From an uncultured Bacteroidia bacterium (GTDB lineage Bacteria > Bacteroidota > Bacteroidia > Bacteroidales > UBA932), in NCBI GenBank assembly GCA_902782225.1, contig CACZMF010000003.1:62001-126000 (forward strand): a DNA stretch of 64,000 bases. Direction: 5' to 3'. Shown here piece after piece: positions 3,572-16,219 of this stretch. A program made the position numbers and the translations under genes. The notes below the pieces were generated by a model. The model had not been told where the DNA came from. It saw only the letters and a list, made by a program, of their open reading frames with translations, and ran no database searches. Within the stretch, counting starts at the first letter, position 1. Each line of letters starts with the position of its first letter.

Positions 3572-4759
3572 ATGCTTCATTCTATCGAGGACATTATATC
3601 CAGGCGTTCAGTCGAAGAGATTTCCGCCACGCTGGACTATTTCGACGCCCTGCCGCGCCGCTACAAGCGTAAGCAGGACCTCGAAAAGGCTTTGTGCGCC
3701 TACTTGTCCGGCGACCCGCGCGTGTGGCTGGACAAGTTGATGGAATATGACCTCAAACTGCTTCAGAAGCTTTGCAAAGGCGGCCCAGACAGCTTCGTGG
3801 ACGTGATTCCCAGCGATTTCCCGACCATAGTCGAGACTCTCCATTTCGTCGAAAGCGGCAAGTCCGACAGCGACGATATGCTGCGGCTGACCATCCCTGG
3901 AGCTTTCTTCCGGCTGATCGTGGACGAAATCGACGACGTGGTGGCCCGCAAGGAGCGGGACGGCTCATTCCGCTTGGAGCATATGATACTCGGAGCCGTG
4001 AACACCTATGGCGCCGTGCCCCTCAGGACTTTCGTGGACAGCATCTTCATGGATTTCGAAGATATGGACGAGATGCGCCGTTTTGCTGGTGCCGTGGCAT
4101 CGCACCCGGCCATGCGCATCTACCAGGAGGAATACAGGGGTGAGTCCTATATGGTGTCGCCAGAGGTGGAGGATTTTCCCGGCCTTATGCGCGACCGCAG
4201 AAAGCTGGGCAAAGATATCAGGCGTTATGGCAAGGTCGCCATCCCGGATATTCTCCAGTGCGGCGAAAATGCTCCCTTCAATTTCTACGGGCGAAGCACT
4301 GAGGAAGGGAAAGCTCTCCTGAAACTCTTTGATTATCTGGGATATGAGGGTGACGAGCTCACATATTCCGCCCATTCTGCCTGGGTCAACTCCCAGTATG
4401 AGCCGGATGAGCGCAATCTGGAGATACTGCTTTCTGCCGTGACTGCCGCAGCGGAGGACATAGAGGATTACGCCCAGTTCCGCGAGTTCGCGCAGGTGGT
4501 GATCGACTACGCCAACTCGGTGCCCAAATGGCTCTTGAAAGGGCAGAGTGCCGAGGCGACCGGCCTGCTTCGTTATGAACTGCCCCCGGATGCTTTTTCC
4601 GAGCTGTTCGAGGAAGACGAGGAAGCCGCGAAAGAGCAGGAAGAACTGATGTCTTTCTTCGACAGCGTCAACAAGGTGCGCCCTGTGGCTCCGGATGATC
4701 CCTGCCCTTGCGGCAGCGGGATATCATACCGCTTCTGCCACGGCCGGCATTTCAGCTGA
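3572..4759 (+). CDS. SEC-C motif protein of unknown function
   Basis: A 395-residue soluble protein. The first 350 residues are helical with no family I recognise. The last 20 or so carry a SEC-C zinc-binding motif (PCPCGSGISYRFCHG), as at the C-terminus of SecA, with the CxC and CH ligands intact. A run of acidic residues (FEEDEEAAKEQEEL) precedes it. ATG 3572 is chosen over TTG 3563. SEC-C modules usually mediate protein contacts, for example with SecB or ribosomes, but no partner can be inferred here. Its last 8 bases overlap the convergent gene at 4752. Confidence 0.7.
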   Translation: MLHSIEDIISRRSVEEISATLDYFDALPRRYKRKQDLEKALCAYLSGDPRVWLDKLMEYDLKLLQKLCKGGPDSFVDVIPSDFPTIVETLHFVESGKSDSDDMLRLTIPGAFFRLIVDEIDDVVARKERDGSFRLEHMILGAVNTYGAVPLRTFVDSIFMDFEDMDEMRRFAGAVASHPAMRIYQEEYRGESYMVSPEVEDFPGLMRDRRKLGKDIRRYGKVAIPDILQCGENAPFNFYGRSTEEGKALLKLFDYLGYEGDELTYSAHSAWVNSQYEPDERNLEILLSAVTAAAEDIEDYAQFREFAQVVIDYANSVPKWLLKGQSAEATGLLRYELPPDAFSELFEEDEEAAKEQEELMSFFDSVNKVRPVAPDDPCPCGSGISYRFCHGRHFS

Positions 4760-5207
4760 TCATTCCCTGAACACCGCTCACGAGCAGGTTCCAGACAAGG
4801 AATCTGCCGGCTTTTCCTATCAGCAGCAGTATGCTCGTCCAGAGCGGATGGGTCTTGTAGAAGCCGAGGGCTATGACCACCACGTCGCCGATTACAGGCA
4901 CCCAGGCGATCAGCGCAAGCCATACCCCGAAACGGTCTATTTTCTGCTTCTGTTTTTCGAGCGTCTCACGCTTGACTTTGAACCACTTTTCAATCCATTC
5001 CCAGCGGCCGAGCCAGCCCATGCCGAAGGTTACCATCGAGCCTAGCCAGTTGCCTGCGGTGCCCACAAGGAAACAAGCAAGCGGACGCTTCGTAGCCGCA
5101 AGGATTGCGATATACAAAGCGTCCGAACTGAAAGGTATAACGGTGGCCGCCAGGAAATTGCCCAGGAAAAGGCCAACCAATCCTAAATCGCTGAGCCAGT
5201 CTAACAC
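4752..5207 (-). CDS. YqaA/DedA-like small membrane protein (VTT family)
   Basis: A 151-residue inner-membrane protein with about four hydrophobic segments: FLGNFLAATVIPFSSDALYIAIL, FLVGTAGNWLGSMVTFGMGWLG, WLALIAWVPVIGDVVVIALGF and the C-terminal WTSILLLIGKAGRFLVWNLL. The NxLGS and WVPVIGD signatures are those of the YqaA branch of the SNARE-associated/VTT (DedA-like) superfamily. Wider DedA proteins are linked to lipid flipping and membrane homeostasis; the substrate of this one is not known. It is the last gene of a leftward unit with the two genes upstream and converges on the SEC-C gene with an 8-bp overlap. Confidence 0.85.
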   Translation of the reverse strand: MLDWLSDLGLVGLFLGNFLAATVIPFSSDALYIAILAATKRPLACFLVGTAGNWLGSMVTFGMGWLGRWEWIEKWFKVKRETLEKQKQKIDRFGVWLALIAWVPVIGDVVVIALGFYKTHPLWTSILLLIGKAGRFLVWNLLVSGVQGMIS

Positions 5208-5209
5208 AG

Positions 5210-5644
5210 CTACTTGACTGCTTTTACCCGAAGCTTTTCTTCAAGATAGGTGGCGAGTTTCCCGACGTTGTCGTCATCGGGCGCGACCACGCAGACGATC
5301 ACAAGGAGACCCTTCTTGATCTCCACGCACATAAGCAGCATTATCGATCCGTTCTCGCATTCGCCGGAGAAGCCGTATGCGGTCCTGTTCTGGAACTTCC
5401 ATTCGGCTATCGGGTTCTCATCGTCATCGTCGTCGTCCCAGCCGATGATTTCAGCGAAATTGGCGTATGCCTCATCTTCAGCCGTGGTGTCGTCGGGCAT
5501 ATCGCCGGCATAGACGTCGATCTCAAAGGCGCCTTCGTCTTTCTGGGCTCCGAAGTGCGTTATGGTCGCGCCGGAGATTTCGTCGTAGCGGTCCGTCTCA
5601 GAAGACCAGCCGTCGGGGAGGGGGAGAGTTACGTCGTAAACCAT
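5210..5644 (-). CDS. Small acidic protein of unknown function
   Basis: A 144-residue protein with no signal peptide and no membrane segment. It alternates beta-like stretches (MVYDVTLPLPDGW, FEIDVYAG, ITHFGAQ) with an acidic patch of six Asp followed by Glu (WDDDDDDENP) and a hydrophobic strand (IMLLMCVEIKKGLLVIVCVV). I do not recognise a family. ATG 5644 begins 4 nt after the upstream peptidase stop; longer openings upstream lie inside the peptidase gene and were rejected. It is tightly sandwiched between a YpfJ-type metallopeptidase and a YqaA protein, so co-expression is likely but the role is open. Confidence 0.75.
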   Translation of the reverse strand: MVYDVTLPLPDGWSSETDRYDEISGATITHFGAQKDEGAFEIDVYAGDMPDDTTAEDEAYANFAEIIGWDDDDDDENPIAEWKFQNRTAYGFSGECENGSIMLLMCVEIKKGLLVIVCVVAPDDDNVGKLATYLEEKLRVKAVK

Positions 5645-5648
5645 AGGG

Positions 5649-6506
5649 CTACAGCTGGTTATAAGGGATTGAGAAGGTGTCGCCCTTGGAAGGGTCGCCG
5701 GTGGAGATGCCCTTCTTAAGCCAGCGCGCGCGCTGGTCTGAGGTGCCGTGGTTGAAGGCGTCTGGGACCGTGTAGCCATAGGCTTTCCGCTGCAGGTAGT
5801 CGTCGCCTATCTTTGCGGCGACCGCGAGGCCTTCTTCTATGTCTCCTTCCTCAAGGGAATTGAACATTTTGTTGTCGTGGTGGGCCCACACTCCGGCATA
5901 GAAGTCGGCCTGGAGCTCAAGCCGCACGCTGATCTGGTTGGATTCCTTCTCGCTGACCCTCTGCATCTGGCGATGGGCGTCCTGCAGGTCGCCCAGCAGG
6001 TACTGGACATGGTGGCCGACCTCATGCGCGATGACATATGCATAGGCAAAATCGCCGTCAGCTCCGATCTGCTTCTTCATCGACGTGAAGAAAGAAAGGT
6101 CTATATAGACGGTCTGGTCGGCGCTGCTGTAGAACGGGCCCGTGGAGGCCGAGGCTGTGCCGGTGGATGTCTGGACGTAGTCGTTGTAGAGCACGAGGCG
6201 CGGCGGCTCGTAGGTCCTGCCGTTAGCCCTGAAAATCTTGGACCATACATCCTCTGTGCCGGCAAGGATCTGCTTGGAGAACACGGCCAGTTGTTCTTCC
6301 TCGGCCGAGGGCGTGTAGTCGGACTCGATCTGGGTGCCGCCTATCGCGCCGGTCTGCTGCAGCACTTCGGTCGGATTGACTCCGAAAACGAGATAAAGCA
6401 AACCTGCTATGAGAATTCCGCCGAGGCCTATGCCTCCGGCTTTGCCTACCGAGCGTCCACGGCGGTCGTCGACGTTGGTGCTTTGTCTTCTACCTTCAAG
6501 ATTCAT
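5649..6506 (-). CDS. YpfJ-type neutral zinc metallopeptidase
   Basis: A 285-residue protein of the putative neutral zinc metallopeptidase family (PF04228). The N-terminus is RRQSTNVDDRRG, then one membrane anchor (GGIGLGGILIAGLLYLVFG), then a periplasmic domain. The zincin motif is HEVGHHVQYLLG (HExxH with Glu as base), followed downstream by SVRLELQADFYAGVWAHH, whose ExxxD segment supplies the third ligand region. All catalytic positions are present. ATG 6506 matches the family N-terminus. The gene leads a leftward three-gene unit and is divergent from the Rpe-like gene across a 213-bp spacer. Confidence 0.88.
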   Translation of the reverse strand: MNLEGRRQSTNVDDRRGRSVGKAGGIGLGGILIAGLLYLVFGVNPTEVLQQTGAIGGTQIESDYTPSAEEEQLAVFSKQILAGTEDVWSKIFRANGRTYEPPRLVLYNDYVQTSTGTASASTGPFYSSADQTVYIDLSFFTSMKKQIGADGDFAYAYVIAHEVGHHVQYLLGDLQDAHRQMQRVSEKESNQISVRLELQADFYAGVWAHHDNKMFNSLEEGDIEEGLAVAAKIGDDYLQRKAYGYTVPDAFNHGTSDQRARWLKKGISTGDPSKGDTFSIPYNQL

Positions 6507-6528
6507 ATTGATCGGGTGTTTTGCTCCA

Positions 6529-6536
6529 CAAAAATA
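6529..6536 (-). promoter_or_regulatory. -7 promoter element of the metallopeptidase unit
   Basis: On the minus strand TATTTTTG fits the Bacteroidota -7 consensus TAnnTTTG, 22 bases before ATG 6506. No TTG lies at the usual 19-21 nt upstream. A second match (TAAATTTG, bases 6571-6578) lies further upstream and is an alternative. Confidence 0.45.
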
Positions 6537-6631
6537 CAAAAAATACCTCAATAATGCTATCGTCTCACTGCAAATTTAGCGCAATTGCTTAAGTATATAA
6601 TAATCAAGCTATAAAACAAATATGTTTATCT

Positions 6632-6705: not shown

Positions 6706-6713
6706 TATTTTTG
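6706..6713 (+). promoter_or_regulatory. -7 promoter element, probably giving a leaderless transcript
   Basis: TATTTTTG matches TAnnTTTG and ends 6 bases before ATG 6720. Since transcription starts about 7 bases after this box, the mRNA would begin at or next to the start codon. The -33 region is weak. Confidence 0.5.
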
Positions 6714-6719
6714 TTTGTT

Positions 6720-7391
6720 ATGAGAAACAGGATTATTTCAGTCTCTGTGATGTGCTCCGACCTTATGAATCTCGGAGCCGATATCGACCTCCTCCGCGGA
6801 AATGGAGTTGACTGGCTCCATGTCGATGTCATGGACGGACACTTCGTCCCCAACCTAACCTTCGGCCCGGATTTCATCAAAGCGATGCACGCCCGCACGC
6901 CCCAGCCCCTGGATATCCATCTTATGGTCACCGATCCGGAGCTTGTCATGTCCCGCTTTGAACTTCGGCAGGGCGACTGCCTGAGCGTGCATGTGGAGCT
7001 TGACCGCAGCTTTGCAGAACTGAGCGCCAGCGTCCGGTCGCAGGGATGCCGTTTCGGGCTTGCCGTCAACCCCGGGACGCCGGTCGAAGCCCTGGAGCGC
7101 CATGTCGGGCTGTTTGATACCGTCACCCTGATGCTGGTGCACCCGGGATATGCCGGAGCAAAGATGGTGGAGGGCATAATGGACAAGGTGAAAGTCCTGC
7201 GCGACTGGCTGGACGCCAGGGGCCTTCAGGACGTCATGATCAGCGTAGACGGCAGCGTGAGCGCCGAAAGGGCCCGGCTTATGGCCGGAATGGGCGCCGA
7301 GATTTTCGTTGGCGGCACTGCCGGAATCTACCGCAAGGGAATGAAACTCGAAGAAACCATACCCACATTCAGAAAAGCTATAACCATATGA
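6720..7391 (+). CDS. Ribulose-phosphate 3-epimerase-like enzyme, divergent
   Basis: A 223-residue TIM barrel of the Rpe family. The metal and acid/base residues are conserved: H34 and D36 in WLHVDVMDG, H67 in IHLMV, and D177 in ISVDGS. Phosphate-loop regions are also present (FVGGTAGIYRK). Two signatures differ from housekeeping Rpe: the N-terminal SILSAD is SVMCSDL, and the SVNPGFGGQ loop is LVHPGYAGAKM. These changes and the operon context suggest a specialised ketose-phosphate epimerase (pentulose or hexulose phosphate) rather than the pentose-pathway enzyme, though ribulose-5-phosphate remains possible. ATG 6720 fits the family; the frame opens at 6711. It overlaps the dehydrogenase gene by 4 nt. 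Confidence 0.8.
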   Translation: MRNRIISVSVMCSDLMNLGADIDLLRGNGVDWLHVDVMDGHFVPNLTFGPDFIKAMHARTPQPLDIHLMVTDPELVMSRFELRQGDCLSVHVELDRSFAELSASVRSQGCRFGLAVNPGTPVEALERHVGLFDTVTLMLVHPGYAGAKMVEGIMDKVKVLRDWLDARGLQDVMISVDGSVSAERARLMAGMGAEIFVGGTAGIYRKGMKLEETIPTFRKAITI

Positions 7392-8734
7392 ACAAAATCG
7401 AACGCGCACTTCAGCGCACCACCGACACCAAAGACCTGATCATTGGGCCCGGAGTCGTGTCCCGCACAGCCGGGATGTTCCAAAAACTTTTTCCTGGAAA
7501 GACTGCGATAATAATCGCTGACACAAATACTTGGAGGGTTGCAGGTGAAGCTGTGCTTCAATCCTTGGAGGATGCCGGCGTGCCCCATGTAGACTCCTTC
7601 GTATTCGATGATCCGGACCTGTATGCCGAATGGAAATTCGTCGAGCAGCTCAAGGCGCACCTCGCCCCGCTCGACGTCATCGCGATTGCAGTGGGCTCCG
7701 GAGTCATAAACGACCTGACAAAATACACATCCCACATATTGGGCCGCAAGTATATGTGCGTAGGCACCGCCGCCTCGATGGACGGCTACACGGCCTACGG
7801 TGCTTCGATCACCAAAGACGGCAACAAGCAGACTTTCAGCTGTCCGGCGCCTTATGGCTTCGTGATGGATCCCGTCATTGCCGCCGCAGCCCCGAAGGAG
7901 CTTGCGGCGTCCGGTTATGCCGACCTCATTGCCAAGATTCCGGCAGGGGCCGACTGGATGCTCGCCGACGCTGTCGGGGCCGAGGCGATAGACCAGTTCG
8001 GGTGGGACCTTGTCCAGGATGGCCTGCGGGAGTCGCTGAGTGCACCTGCTGCGGTGCATGCGGGCGATGTGGAGATGACGGAAAAACTCTCCGAGGGCCT
8101 TCTGATGAGCGGTTTTGCCATGCAGGCCATCCACAGCAGCCGTCCCGCATCCGGCACGGAGCACCAGTTCTCGCACTGCTGGGATATGGAGAATCTTGCC
8201 TACCCCAACGGAAAGCACGTATCCCACGGCTTCAAGGTGGGCATCGGCACCCTGGCCAGCACGGCATCCCTGGAGTTCCTGCTTGAAAAAGACCTTGAGA
8301 ATCTGGATGTCGAGAAATGCGTAGCTGCCTGGAAATCCTGGGATGAGACCGAAGCCGAGATACGCACCATATTTGCCGGTAAGCCCGGGCACCTTGCCCG
8401 CGGCCTGGAGGAGACGAAAGGAAAATATGTCGACAAGGAAGGCCTTCGCAGGCAACTGGAGGCCCTGAAGGCGAAATGGCCCGTGCTCAAGGAGCAGATC
8501 AGGGCCCAGATCATCCCATTCAGCGAGGTCTATGAAGACCTGAAGCTTGTGGGAGCTCCGTATGAACCTGAAATGATATGCGTGGACCGCGCCAGGATGC
8601 GCAGGACCTTCTCATATATACCTTATATGCGCAGCCGTTTCACCAACATCGATATTGTTTACCGTCTCGGCCTGATGTCGGAACTGACCGAAAGGCTCTT
8701 CGGCAAGGGCGGTATCTGGGAAGTAAAAGAATAG
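7388..8734 (+). CDS. AraM/glycerol-1-phosphate dehydrogenase-type polyol-phosphate dehydrogenase
   Basis: A 448-residue member of the iron-type dehydrogenase group that includes EgsA/AraM (PF13685). The NAD-binding region has GSGVINDLTKYTS (residues 103-115) and the substrate loop has GTAASMDGYTA. Probable metal ligands are D179 (GYADLIAK), H259 (GTEHQFSH) and H280 (VSHGFKVGIG). Characterised relatives interconvert sn-glycerol-1-phosphate and dihydroxyacetone phosphate with NAD(P). The genes around it suggest the real substrate may be another polyol phosphate such as a pentitol phosphate. It is coupled by ATGA to the epimerase and followed after 3 nt by the transporter. The family is secure, the substrate is not. 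Confidence 0.82.
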   Translation: MNKIERALQRTTDTKDLIIGPGVVSRTAGMFQKLFPGKTAIIIADTNTWRVAGEAVLQSLEDAGVPHVDSFVFDDPDLYAEWKFVEQLKAHLAPLDVIAIAVGSGVINDLTKYTSHILGRKYMCVGTAASMDGYTAYGASITKDGNKQTFSCPAPYGFVMDPVIAAAAPKELAASGYADLIAKIPAGADWMLADAVGAEAIDQFGWDLVQDGLRESLSAPAAVHAGDVEMTEKLSEGLLMSGFAMQAIHSSRPASGTEHQFSHCWDMENLAYPNGKHVSHGFKVGIGTLASTASLEFLLEKDLENLDVEKCVAAWKSWDETEAEIRTIFAGKPGHLARGLEETKGKYVDKEGLRRQLEALKAKWPVLKEQIRAQIIPFSEVYEDLKLVGAPYEPEMICVDRARMRRTFSYIPYMRSRFTNIDIVYRLGLMSELTERLFGKGGIWEVKE

Positions 8735-8737
8735 CTT

Positions 8738-10210
8738 ATGCAGACCACCAAATCACTTAAGTACTGGCAGTGGCGCACGATTATCGTCACGATGATAGGC
8801 TATGCCATGTTCTACCTGGTACGCAAGAATTTCTCTTTTTCCATGCCGGGCCTTGGCGCCGAATTCGGCATCACCAAGACGCAGCTCGGTATATTCCTGA
8901 CCCTCCACGGCGTCATCTACGGCCTTTCGCGTTATGTGGTGGGCATCATCACCGACCGCAACAGCGCCCGCAAGGTGATGTCGCTCGGCCTGATGCTCTG
9001 CGCCATCGTGAACATCCTCTTCGGCACAAGTGACGTGATGGCCGGCTGGGTAGTCGGCCTGGCGGGCAAGGCCGGCGATGCAGCAGCGATTTCCGCCGTG
9101 CTGGTGTATGTGATGGGCGTGCTCTGGATGGTCAACGGTTTCCTGCAGGGAATGGGCGTTCCGCCGTGCACGAAGACCCTGACGCAGTGGATACATCCCA
9201 AGGAACTCGCCACCAAGATGAGCATATGGAATATGTCCCATTCCATCGGCGCCGGTCTTGCCATGGCCCTGTGCGGCTGGCTGGTGATGCCCCATCTGGG
9301 GGTTGACATGAGCATCGATCCCGAGACCGTCGCAGCCATTTCCGCCAACCTCAATCTGGATATGTCCGACCCTGCCAACGTGCAGAAAGTCAGCAACTTT
9401 GCCGCCCACTTCGGAGCCTGGCGCTGGTGCTTCCTCATTCCTGCCGGCGTGGCCGTGCTCGGCTCGGTATGGCTGTTCTTCACGATGAAGGATTCCCCTT
9501 CGGACGTGGGCCTGCCTGAGGTCGTGGGAAAGAAGAAGGCGATTGTGACCACCCCCGAAGAGGCGGCCGAGCACAAGGCCTTCGTCAACAGGCACGTCTA
9601 CCGCAACCGTATCATCTGGACTCTTGCCATCACGAATTTCTTCGTCTATGTGGTGCGTTTTGCCGCCCTTGACTGGGGCCCGACGCTGCTTACCGAATCC
9701 AAGGGGCTCTCGATGGCCAACGCCACGACCCTCTGCGTCGTGTTCGAACTCCTGGGCGGCAACCTCGGAATGCTGTTCTGGGGCTGGGCCACTGACCATA
9801 TCTTCAAGAACAAGGCCCACCACACCTGCGTGGTGTGCATGGTGGGCGTGGCTATATGCATAGCTGCGTTCTGGATGATTCCTGCAAGCGCCTCCTGGTG
9901 GCTGATGCTGGTGCCCTTCACCCTGCTTGGCTTCTGCATCTACGGCCCCCAGGCCCTGCTTGGCATCTGCGCCGCCCAGCACGCCACGAACCGCGCTTCC
10001 GCGACGGCCAACGGCATCCTCGGCATCTTCGGATACCTCAGCACCATCGTTTCCGGCTTCGGTTTCGGCTTCGTGGCCGAGCATTACGGCTGGAACGCCG
10101 CCTACATCACGATATTCGTCTGCGCCATCATAGGCCTGGTGACCGTGCTCACGATCTGGGGCGCCAAAGCCACCGGCTACACAGAAGAGGACCTTCACGA
10201 AAAAGCATAA
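8738..10210 (+). CDS. Organophosphate:phosphate antiporter family MFS transporter (GlpT/UhpC-like)
   Basis: A 490-residue, 12-helix inner-membrane carrier. Features typical of the OPA branch of the major facilitator family are YAMFYLVRKNFSFSMPGL (residues 22-39, with the Arg used for phosphate binding), GLSRYVVGIITDRNSARKVM (the loop 2-3 signature), GMGVPPCTKTLTQW, and FVYVVRFAALDWGPTLLTE in the second half with a second conserved Arg. Relatives import glycerol-3-phosphate, hexose phosphates or phosphoglycerate in exchange for phosphate. It is 3 nt from the dehydrogenase and 3 nt from the phosphoesterase, so it likely imports the substrate of the operon. Confidence 0.88.
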   Translation: MQTTKSLKYWQWRTIIVTMIGYAMFYLVRKNFSFSMPGLGAEFGITKTQLGIFLTLHGVIYGLSRYVVGIITDRNSARKVMSLGLMLCAIVNILFGTSDVMAGWVVGLAGKAGDAAAISAVLVYVMGVLWMVNGFLQGMGVPPCTKTLTQWIHPKELATKMSIWNMSHSIGAGLAMALCGWLVMPHLGVDMSIDPETVAAISANLNLDMSDPANVQKVSNFAAHFGAWRWCFLIPAGVAVLGSVWLFFTMKDSPSDVGLPEVVGKKKAIVTTPEEAAEHKAFVNRHVYRNRIIWTLAITNFFVYVVRFAALDWGPTLLTESKGLSMANATTLCVVFELLGGNLGMLFWGWATDHIFKNKAHHTCVVCMVGVAICIAAFWMIPASASWWLMLVPFTLLGFCIYGPQALLGICAAQHATNRASATANGILGIFGYLSTIVSGFGFGFVAEHYGWNAAYITIFVCAIIGLVTVLTIWGAKATGYTEEDLHEKA

Positions 10211-10213
10211 CAG

Positions 10214-11815
10214 ATGAAGCGATTGTTATCATTATTTGCAGGCGCCGCTCTGTGCCTGTCGCTCTTTGCCGCAAAGCCCCTTCCCAAGGAGGTCAAGGGG
10301 CGCGTCTGTGACACCGCGGGCAATCCGGTCCCGGGGGTGGTGGTCTCAGACGGCTTCACCGTGGTGCGCACCGACGCCGACGGCAATTACTGCTTCCCGC
10401 GCGTCCCGCAGGCGTATTATGTGTTCATAAGCATTCCTTCCGAATACGAGATTCCGCTGCGTCAGGGCCAGCCCTGCTTCTACAAGAAGCTGGAAGACAG
10501 GCCTGCCTACAACTTCACCCTGAAACCGCTCCGGAAGGGCCCGGAAAAGGAATTCAACCTGTTCCTGATGGCAGATCCCCAGTGCCAGTGGGTATGGCAC
10601 GTCCGGCGTCTTCGCGAGGAGGCGCTCAAGGATGTCAAGGCCTATGCCCGCAAATGCAAGGGCCCCGACTACGCCATCACCCTGGGCGACATCGCCTACA
10701 GCGAAGGCCACCGCAACACCAACTACCTGATTCCGATGATACGTGAGGAATTTGCCGCGGAAAAGACAGGAATGCCAGTATTCCAGACTGTCGGCAACCA
10801 CGATTTCGAGTATCCGCTGGCAGCCATCGAAGACGGCAGCCCGACCATCTCAATGCGCCGCAACCGCATTTTCGAAGACAACTTCGGCCCCGTGAATTAT
10901 TCTTTCAACAGGGGAGACGTCCACGTGGTGTCGATGAACAACGTCTGCTTCGAGTCGTTCGGCTATCCTGGCAAGTACCACGGAGATTTTTCCGATGAGC
11001 AGGTCTCCTGGCTCAGTCAGGACCTTGCTGCAGTGCCTTCGGACAAGCTCGTGATCCTCTGCGTGCATATTCCGATGGAGGGCCTCGCCAAGAAGAGCGC
11101 CAACGCCGCGAAGGTGCTGGACCTGCTCGGTGCAAGGCCGCACGCCCGCATCGTGAGCGGCCACACCCACACTATCAAGCATTTGAAGCATCCTGGCGGC
11201 ATCCCCGAATTCGTGGCTGGCGCCATGTCCGGATGCTGGTGGTGGAGCAAGAACTGCGCGGACGGCGCCCCCAACGGCTATTGCGTCTGGAAGATCCGGG
11301 GCAACGAAGTGGTCTCCGACATCTATAAGGGCCAGAATTTCAAGGACGACTACCAGATGCGCATCTACCGCGGCGATGGTGAGTTCGGCGGCCCCTATGA
11401 GACCTGCAAGCTGGAGCACGGTGCCAATTCAATTCTGGTGAACGTGTGGAACTGGGATGAAGGCTGGCGCTCGGAGGTCTATGAAAACGGGAAACTTGCC
11501 GGACAGCTGGAAAAGCTCCCGGTCTCGAACGAGTTCGGCGCTCCTTTCAACGGCAGCAAGGACTGGTGGGCTATAGGCTACAACGTCGGAGTGGTGGGCC
11601 GTGGGCATGCTCCGGGCAGCAACAGGGGCAATTATTGCTCGAAGTGCCTCCACATGTTCAAGTACACCCTAAAGGATGCTTCGGCGAAGGTGAAGGTGGT
11701 CGTGTATGACAGGTCGGGCAGGAAATTCAGCTGCAGCCGTATAACGACGGCGGACGACTATGCCGAGTTGGCAAGCCGTCCGCAGTATCCGGTCGAACCC
11801 GGCTGGGAGGAGTAA
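10214..11815 (+). CDS. Secreted calcineurin-like phosphoesterase with N- and C-terminal accessory domains
   Basis: A 533-residue exported protein with a signal peptide ending near AAKPLP. Residues 27-105 form a carboxypeptidase-regulatory-like beta domain (EVKGRVCDTAGNPVPGVVVS). Residues 115-350 are a metallophosphoesterase core with all motifs: D121 and Q123 in MADPQC, GD near 158-159, GNHD 194-197, H284 in CVHIP and GHTH 315-318. The rest matches the layout of the Bacteroidota MetallophosN/MetallophosC families. It probably works in the periplasm or at the surface as a phosphodiesterase or phosphatase releasing a phosphorylated polyol for the transporter upstream in the operon; that last step is inference. 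Confidence 0.85.
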   Translation: MKRLLSLFAGAALCLSLFAAKPLPKEVKGRVCDTAGNPVPGVVVSDGFTVVRTDADGNYCFPRVPQAYYVFISIPSEYEIPLRQGQPCFYKKLEDRPAYNFTLKPLRKGPEKEFNLFLMADPQCQWVWHVRRLREEALKDVKAYARKCKGPDYAITLGDIAYSEGHRNTNYLIPMIREEFAAEKTGMPVFQTVGNHDFEYPLAAIEDGSPTISMRRNRIFEDNFGPVNYSFNRGDVHVVSMNNVCFESFGYPGKYHGDFSDEQVSWLSQDLAAVPSDKLVILCVHIPMEGLAKKSANAAKVLDLLGARPHARIVSGHTHTIKHLKHPGGIPEFVAGAMSGCWWWSKNCADGAPNGYCVWKIRGNEVVSDIYKGQNFKDDYQMRIYRGDGEFGGPYETCKLEHGANSILVNVWNWDEGWRSEVYENGKLAGQLEKLPVSNEFGAPFNGSKDWWAIGYNVGVVGRGHAPGSNRGNYCSKCLHMFKYTLKDASAKVKVVVYDRSGRKFSCSRITTADDYAELASRPQYPVEPGWEE

Positions 11816-11820
11816 TCCCG

Positions 11821-16219
<4,399 letters not shown>

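Follow-up and report, generated by a model that had tools for sequence, protein, structure and literature searches.

We analyzed a 64,000-nucleotide stretch of DNA from an uncultured gut or rumen bacterium of the Bacteroidales (UBA932; GenBank assembly GCA_902782225.1, contig CACZMF010000003.1, positions 62,001 to 126,000; here, the window), which carries a candidate operon for the scavenging of a polyol phosphate. The operon consists of four open reading frames (ORFs), encoding an Rpe-family epimerase (RPE2), an AraM-type dehydrogenase (DH1), an organophosphate:phosphate antiporter (OPA), and a metallophosphoesterase (MPE) (Table 1). All four lie on the forward strand with spacings of -4, 3, and 3 nucleotides, and the domains of all four proteins scored above their Pfam cutoffs (175 bits for the epimerase against PF00834 and 147 bits for the antiporter against PF07690), confirming the arrangement given in a preliminary description of this DNA. 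The epimerase ORF has an alternative start, an in-frame TTG at 6711. On either side, the neighboring genes (a PF04228 zinc metallopeptidase at 5649-6551 and the asparagine synthetase AsnA at 11821-12978) are on the opposite strand; thus, the four-gene unit is closed at both ends. Promoter and terminator patterns at the operon did not rise above the level found in shuffled sequence.

Table 1. Genes and sequence features of the operon in the window
Feature	Position	Strand	Basis
Rpe-family 3-epimerase with ALSE-type phosphate loop (RPE2), 223 aa	6720..7391	+	PF00834
Strand-6 loop PGYAG of the epimerase (ALSE PGFAG, Rpe PGFGG)	7143..7157	+	Alignment
Beta-8 loop GGTAGIY of the epimerase, residues 198-204	7311..7331	+	Alignment to AlsE/Rpe structures
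AraM/EgsA-type polyol-phosphate dehydrogenase (DH1), 448 aa	7388..8734	+	PF13685 Fe-ADH_2
Span with presumed metal ligands D179, H259, and H280 of the dehydrogenase	7922..8227	+	Alignment
Organophosphate:phosphate antiporter family, GlpT/UhpC-like MFS (OPA), 490 aa	8738..10210	+	PF07690 MFS_1
Metallophosphoesterase, predicted to be secreted (MPE), with MetallophosN and MetallophosC domains, 533 aa	10214..11815	+	PF16371+PF00149+PF16370

The four-gene set is real and not a chance arrangement. A single scan of public genomes with the dehydrogenase yielded 73 loci, including 18 of the window type and 26 in which the epimerase gene is araD (AraD type); nearly all were from Bacteroidales of the rumen and gut, and one was from Maribellus. 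Among the 17 scan loci whose dehydrogenase is at least 87% identical to DH1, 16 had all four genes in the same order (counting L013, where the epimerase is truncated by the contig end), and the exception, L025, had a lone dehydrogenase. At 81% identity, L029 still had all four genes, with a second-type dehydrogenase and another MPE behind them, and L028, on a short contig, had three of the four. The overlap of -4 between the epimerase and dehydrogenase genes was found in 13 of the 15 distinct four-gene loci with gaps listed (two further rows were copies and were excluded); the spacing was +4 in L012 and +12 in L029. Rarity of the set had been named beforehand as one outcome that would refute the preliminary description; the set proved common among close relatives, but in distant relatives its partners are swapped, as detailed below. 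Among 101 genomes of the genus, 42 had a member of the dehydrogenase family (E 1e-60), 17 had one at least 61% identical, and 6 had one at least 87% identical. In the order sample, matches at E 1e-10 were found in 8 of 295 genomes, two of them weak (28 and 31% identical), and in the phylum sample a match at E 1e-60 was found in 1 of 395, the source genome itself. Therefore, the operon is a patchy trait of some Bacteroidales lineages. Several dehydrogenase matches of the genus survey (e.g., G326:C7:111791-113131) carry a single in-frame TGA or TAA in the reading frame or in the aligned region.

By sequence and predicted fold, DH1 is an AraM-type enzyme, in agreement with its earlier assignment. 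It scored 116.7 bits against PF13685 (cutoff, 28), and its closest relative of solved structure is AraM (Protein Data Bank code 9h4x; the VIA-align lists used here are a second look at Foldseek matches only). Residues D179, H259, and H280, which we take to be metal ligands, were invariant in 22 of 22 aligned family members and could be aligned to AraM and to archaeal glycerol-1-phosphate dehydrogenases. Against the NCBI equivalog model for glycerol-1-phosphate dehydrogenase (NF002022), DH1 scored 147.4 bits, below the cutoff of 413. The source genome (G000) encodes a second AraM-type dehydrogenase (G000:C2:187315-188640; L085:8313-9719), 42% identical to the operon enzyme, which lies between a metallo-beta-lactamase-fold gene with weak similarity to PhnP and a GatZ/KbaZ-like gene, with a same-strand GDPD gene a little upstream.

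The antiporter's nearest solved structure by sequence is GlpT (1pw4). When the two were aligned, the arginines in VRKNF and VVRFAALDW matched arginines of GlpT, and a histidine is present in MSHSIG; we take these to correspond to the phosphate-binding residues of a GlpT-type antiporter. The protein scored below the cutoff of every NCBIfam model listed for it, the named members being GlpT, UhpT, and PgtP. MPE has a three-domain architecture and the phosphoesterase motifs, the first of which reads DPQ, and its fold is that of known phosphodiesterases and phosphatases, with the glycerophosphodiesterase GpdQ nearest. Of its earlier designation as a secreted metallophosphoesterase, the enzyme class fits the fold, while secretion is predicted from a signal-like N-terminal segment judged by eye.

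To see which genes accompany the dehydrogenase across its family, we compared 109 loci of unequal length, distinct by dehydrogenase residues 100 to 300 and including two distant homologues (L009 and L010) and both halves of one gene (L080 and L081); neighbors within four genes were classed by phmmer against chosen queries (E 1e-12). An antiporter was found in 64 of the 109 loci and an MPE or GDPD in 45 (51 when the purple-acid-phosphatase [PAP] type is added), which, together with the AraM-like dehydrogenase, supports the import-and-oxidize logic proposed previously. One of three unrelated epimerases was present in 49 loci (Rpe family, 17; AraD, 28; GatZ, 4), and an Rpe-family gene and AraD never occurred together. 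HAD phosphatases (18 loci), SusC/D (11), and GH31 (5) were further neighbors; Pfam verified the SusC and SusD assignments for the query proteins and for three additional SusD genes. In 20 loci, none of the antiporter, esterase, epimerase, and HAD genes was in view. Relatives swap the epimerase (to AraD or GatZ) and the esterase (to GDPD) around the dehydrogenase. AraD stands in the place of RPE2 beside dehydrogenases that are 74 to 82% identical to DH1. In a tree of 105 dehydrogenases, the window type fell within a set of 18 rows (support, 97) in the region that also contains the AraD type, and L028 and L029, which have an Rpe-family gene, clustered with an AraD-type row (support, 93). This placement suggests, without proof, that the epimerase was exchanged beside a conserved dehydrogenase.

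Individual layouts illustrate the variety (DH, dehydrogenase). GDPD-AraD-DH-OPA was seen in L037 and L067; GDPD-DH-OPA with no epimerase in view in the more distant family members L004 and L005; and SusC-SusD-MPE-DH-OPA in L053, L069, and L083. L082 has SusC-SusD-MPE-PAP and DH-GH2-GH31 with a DeoR gene between them, and in L022 a window-type operon is followed by SusC-SusD. Alistipes montrealensis kh20 (L068) has the dehydrogenase and the antiporter with no epimerase in view. We also noted a secreted-looking protein of about 350 residues with no Pfam match near several dehydrogenases (L055:8326-9441, L089:7943-8989, and L105:1657-2712); the copies in L055, L064, and L072 fall in one sequence cluster, and those in L089 and L105 are alike by eye. 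L056 is a locus of the arabinose-polymer type with an AraM-type dehydrogenase (L056:610-13778), in which SusC-like and SusD genes, an MFS transporter, the dehydrogenase, a ribulokinase (above the NF003154 cutoff), a GH43/arabinofuranosidase fusion, and a HAD phosphatase form a run. In L102, an L-rhamnose isomerase (8064-9314; above the NF002203 cutoff) directly follows a second-type dehydrogenase, and in L090 a diverged GpsA-like NAD glycerol-3-phosphate dehydrogenase (4439-5488) lies near an AraM-type dehydrogenase.

The epimerase is the component that could indicate which sugar is handled. It had been called divergent, which is true of its sequence (33% identical to the source genome's other, normal Rpe) but not of its orientation. 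Overall scores did not separate the two candidate families, as RPE2 matched AlsE and Rpe structures at 141.8 and 141.7 bits, respectively. Likewise, it scored below the cutoffs of both the Rpe equivalog TIGR01163 (185.2 bits; cutoff, 212.6) and the AlsE equivalog NF007266 (173.1 bits; cutoff, 271) and just above that of the subfamily model PRK05581.1-4 (NF004076; 166.8 bits; cutoff, 165). The phosphate loop, measured from Gly-Ala to the aromatic residue, spans 13 residues in RPE2, the same as in Escherichia coli AlsE (3ct7), versus 12 in the Rpe structures 7sbj, 7b1w, 2fli, 1tqj, and 1rpx and in the normal Rpe of the source genome. At this beta-8 loop, HMMER aligned RPE2 to AlsE without a gap, placed a gap against 7sbj and 2fli and none against 7b1w, and ended its 1tqj alignment before the loop. 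The pattern VGGTAG(I/V)Y was present in 30 of 31 distinct RPE2 sequences (33 of 34 counting copies), and the remaining one, L148, has VCGTASLY of equal length; the strand-6 loop reads PG(Y/F)AG in 25 of the 31 and PGFSG in the other 6, all from Alistipes loci. The one extra beta-8 residue of AlsE reportedly admits hexulose 6-phosphate, and its removal is said to shift preference to ribulose 5-phosphate. Because RPE2 has an ALSE-type loop and a normal Rpe is encoded elsewhere in the genome, a ketohexose 6-phosphate would be at least as likely a substrate as a pentulose phosphate, and for the same two reasons the earlier proposal of an Rpe feeding the pentose pathway is not well supported.

The exchanged AraD offers a second clue. 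In the operon AraDs, the residue beside the aspartate that we presume to be catalytic is T, A, or H in 27 of 29 distinct sequences, as opposed to Tyr in 10 of 10 AraDs adjoining an arabinose isomerase; because of this replacement, the substrate of the operon AraD may have shifted. Three hints, namely, the RPE2 loop, the occurrence of GatZ, and the residue change in operon AraDs, lean toward a ketohexose 6-phosphate. With regard to GatZ, a passage in the literature reports that expression of gatZ or kbaZ lets E. coli make tagatose via C4 epimerization of fructose 6-phosphate (PMC11907403).

Genome-wide co-occurrence linked RPE2 to the dehydrogenase in the 101 genus genomes, which are incomplete; Fisher tests ignored relatedness, RPE2 was assigned from its match score (155 to 185 bits) and counts were entered by hand, a fragment in G296 (110 bits) was dropped, and G338 (matches of 209 and 215 bits) was scored as lacking RPE2. 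RPE2 was present in 13 of the 101 genomes, and all 13 also had the dehydrogenase family (Fisher, 3e-6). AraD in general was not tied to the dehydrogenase (20 of 47 AraD genomes versus 42 of 101 overall; Fisher, 0.51). In the 12 genomes with AraD and no arabinose isomerase (AraA), a subset picked after the arabinose isomerase result had been seen, the dehydrogenase family was present in 11 (2e-4), a close-type dehydrogenase in 9 (2e-6), and RPE2 in 9 (7e-8). We also considered 39 chosen genomes, carrying 22 of the 26 AraD-type loci, 16 of the 18 window-type loci, and, as the seventeenth of the window type, G000; AraD in the first set and RPE2 in the second are present by choice. An arabinose isomerase match was found in only 1 of the 39, an AraD-type genome, leaving 21 of 22 AraD-type genomes without one, which led us to reject ordinary L-arabinose breakdown as an explanation for AraD in these relatives. 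Of the 17 window-type genomes, 16 had AraD (a partial match in one), and 14 of the 22 AraD-type genomes had RPE2. UlaE and UlaF are epimerases that act in series, and a serial arrangement of RPE2 and AraD was suggested by AraD without AraA in 9 of the 13 RPE2 genomes; it was not adopted, as RPE2 is absent from 8 of the 22 AraD-type genomes. In the window-type genome G817, a zinc-type alcohol dehydrogenase lies directly upstream of a lone AraD (L133:4664-6769).

Away from the dehydrogenase, RPE2 was often still beside a phosphoesterase, an antiporter, or both. We found metallophos-RPE2-OPA in L149 and L153 (where the esterases have a Tat-like signal and fall just below the Pfam cutoff), RPE2-OPA in L152, and RPE2-MPE in L148 and L150. 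L146 has RPE2-OPA-MPE-DH2. Counter to this pattern, RPE2 stands alone in L147 and L151. In L141 and L144, a longer overlapping ORF masked the RPE2 gene. A GDPD gene was divergent from RPE2 in 8 of 8 Alistipes loci listed (10 were fetched; Pfam confirmed the GDPD in L136), and an NCS2-type permease and a KbaY/FbaA-like aldolase lay behind the GDPD in at least 5 Alistipes RPE2 loci. L136 (1490-8739) is one such region, with GDPD, the NCS2 permease, and a class II ketose-bisphosphate aldolase divergent from RPE2 and a diverged GatZ-like gene nearby.

From the observed gene content, order, conservation, family membership, and co-occurrence, we predict substrates and activities for a scavenging operon with a probability of about 0.5. 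The presumably secreted, GpdQ-like MPE would cleave a phosphodiester-linked polymer or lipid head group to free an alditol phosphate, and the antiporter, judging by its family, would import it in exchange for phosphate. DH1 would then oxidize the alditol phosphate to a 2-ketose phosphate, which the epimerase would convert to a form usable by central metabolism. Because of the phosphate loop, our first choice for this last step is conversion of a ketohexose 6-phosphate to fructose 6-phosphate, and our second is one in which a pentulose 5-phosphate yields xylulose 5-phosphate. The antiporter, the phosphodiesterase, the epimerase, and the SusC/D neighbors support the scavenging of a phosphodiester-derived polyol phosphate, and the route of the preliminary description as a whole is partly supported.

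Several observations weigh against the hexulose assignment: the operon AraD lies well within the AraD family (L067, 374 bits; cutoff, 257), Tyr is kept in 7 of 10 lone AraDs of window-type genomes, and ribitol phosphate of teichoic acid is far better documented than any hexitol phosphate. A ribulokinase also occurs at two dehydrogenase family members (immediately behind the dehydrogenase in L056 and three genes farther along in L114), which would fit a pentitol phosphate, chiefly the ribitol 5-phosphate of wall teichoic acid, that is imported and oxidized. Oxidation would give D-ribulose 5-phosphate from one enantiomer or L-ribulose 5-phosphate from the other, which the Rpe-family enzyme (or AraD) would epimerize to xylulose 5-phosphate. 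Such a route is possible, although we would not favor it. Ribitol phosphate is kept in play because AraD, which belongs to the L-ribulose-5-phosphate 4-epimerase family, replaces RPE2 in relatives whose genomes lack arabinose isomerase; moreover, ribitol is meso, and by our reasoning this pair of epimerases is just what its two phosphate enantiomers would call for. Teichoic acids are mostly built with glycerol, ribitol, or sugar phosphate, according to one published passage (PMC7086022). The ALSE-type loop, the normal Rpe in the genome, and the loss of Tyr from operon AraDs speak against a pentitol phosphate.

Scavenging of sn-glycerol-1-phosphate (G1P) would explain the dehydrogenase, as its nearest relative of known structure is AraM, a G1P dehydrogenase (in a passage of PMC5059525). 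MPE or GDPD would free G1P from lipoteichoic acid, phosphatidylglycerol, or archaeal lipid, DH1 would make dihydroxyacetone phosphate, and the epimerase would be an unrelated passenger. Archaeal lipid, the G1P source named in the preliminary description, is not needed, as lipoteichoic acid is built of the same enantiomer (stated in a passage of PMC7086022). Dihydroxyacetone phosphate requires no epimerase; however, epimerases of three families recur near the dehydrogenase, and both RPE2 and the AraD of AraA-less genomes co-occur with it genome-wide. For the distant GDPD-DH-OPA loci, simple scavenging of G1P is a plausible reading; for the window operon it is less so, and we regard it as unlikely there. 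A dehydrogenase running in reverse to supply G1P for archaeal-type or geranylgeranylglyceryl phosphate (GGGP) lipids is highly improbable. Such lipids are fed by G1P dehydrogenases in Archaea and Bacillus subtilis (a passage of PMC5059525), and G006, which has a GDPD-DH-OPA locus with a dehydrogenase 52% identical to DH1, has a match to PcrB/GGGP synthase (GGGPS). The same search, positive in 11 other sample genomes including G006, found PcrB/GGGPS above the cutoff in 0 of 37 genus genomes (two had weaker matches) and gave no match in G000, which is 92% complete; therefore, lipid synthesis was rejected for the window operon, where the esterase and antiporter also suggest uptake.

Returning to polyol phosphate scavenging, a broader and more tentative proposal, which we hold with considerable doubt, is that the AraM-type dehydrogenases of Bacteroidales may as a family be alditol-phosphate dehydrogenases rather than lipid enzymes and form the center of a modular kit. 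The antiporter and the dehydrogenase would be combined with an interchangeable secreted esterase (MPE, GDPD, or single-domain metallophos) and an interchangeable epimerase (ALSE type, AraD, or GatZ) matched to the polyol, and the window version would act on a hexitol phosphate. To our knowledge, hexitol phosphates are not a class of phosphodiester known as a gut or rumen nutrient. Each gene's family is known already, as is the uptake logic from glp systems; for the gene combination and the three-epimerase exchange around an AraM-type dehydrogenase, no description appeared among the top-listed results of searches in an open-license library, which leaves most subscription journals outside. If AraM relatives are tied to uptake of phosphorylated polyols, the epimerase provides a built-in clue to the sugar, and the bacterial AraM family may have a role besides lipid synthesis; one passage describes the role of the archaea-type lipid fed by AraM in B. 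subtilis as still unknown (PMC5059525). Should teichoic acid be the polymer, Gram-negative bacteria of the gut and rumen would be using dedicated loci to feed on the walls of Gram-positive cells.

The operon resembles several known systems in part. DH1 is 24% identical over the structural alignment to AraM, the Ni-dependent G1P dehydrogenase of the B. subtilis arabinose operon, but it sits with an antiporter and phosphoesterases in a genome where no GGGPS/PcrB was found. The epimerase is like E. coli AlsE in the length and pattern of its phosphate loop; unlike AlsE, it is overall no closer to that enzyme than to Rpe, and its operon is without allose genes. With the SusC/SusD polysaccharide utilization loci, the dehydrogenase family shares SusC/D neighbors in 11 of 109 loci, including the window-type L022, whereas the genes flanking the window operon include no SusC/D. 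The glp/ugp systems (GlpT, GlpQ/GDPD, and glycerol-3-phosphate dehydrogenase) follow the same logic of a secreted diesterase, an antiporter, and a dehydrogenase; unlike them, the window operon has an AraM-type dehydrogenase, an extra epimerase, and MPE in place of GlpQ.

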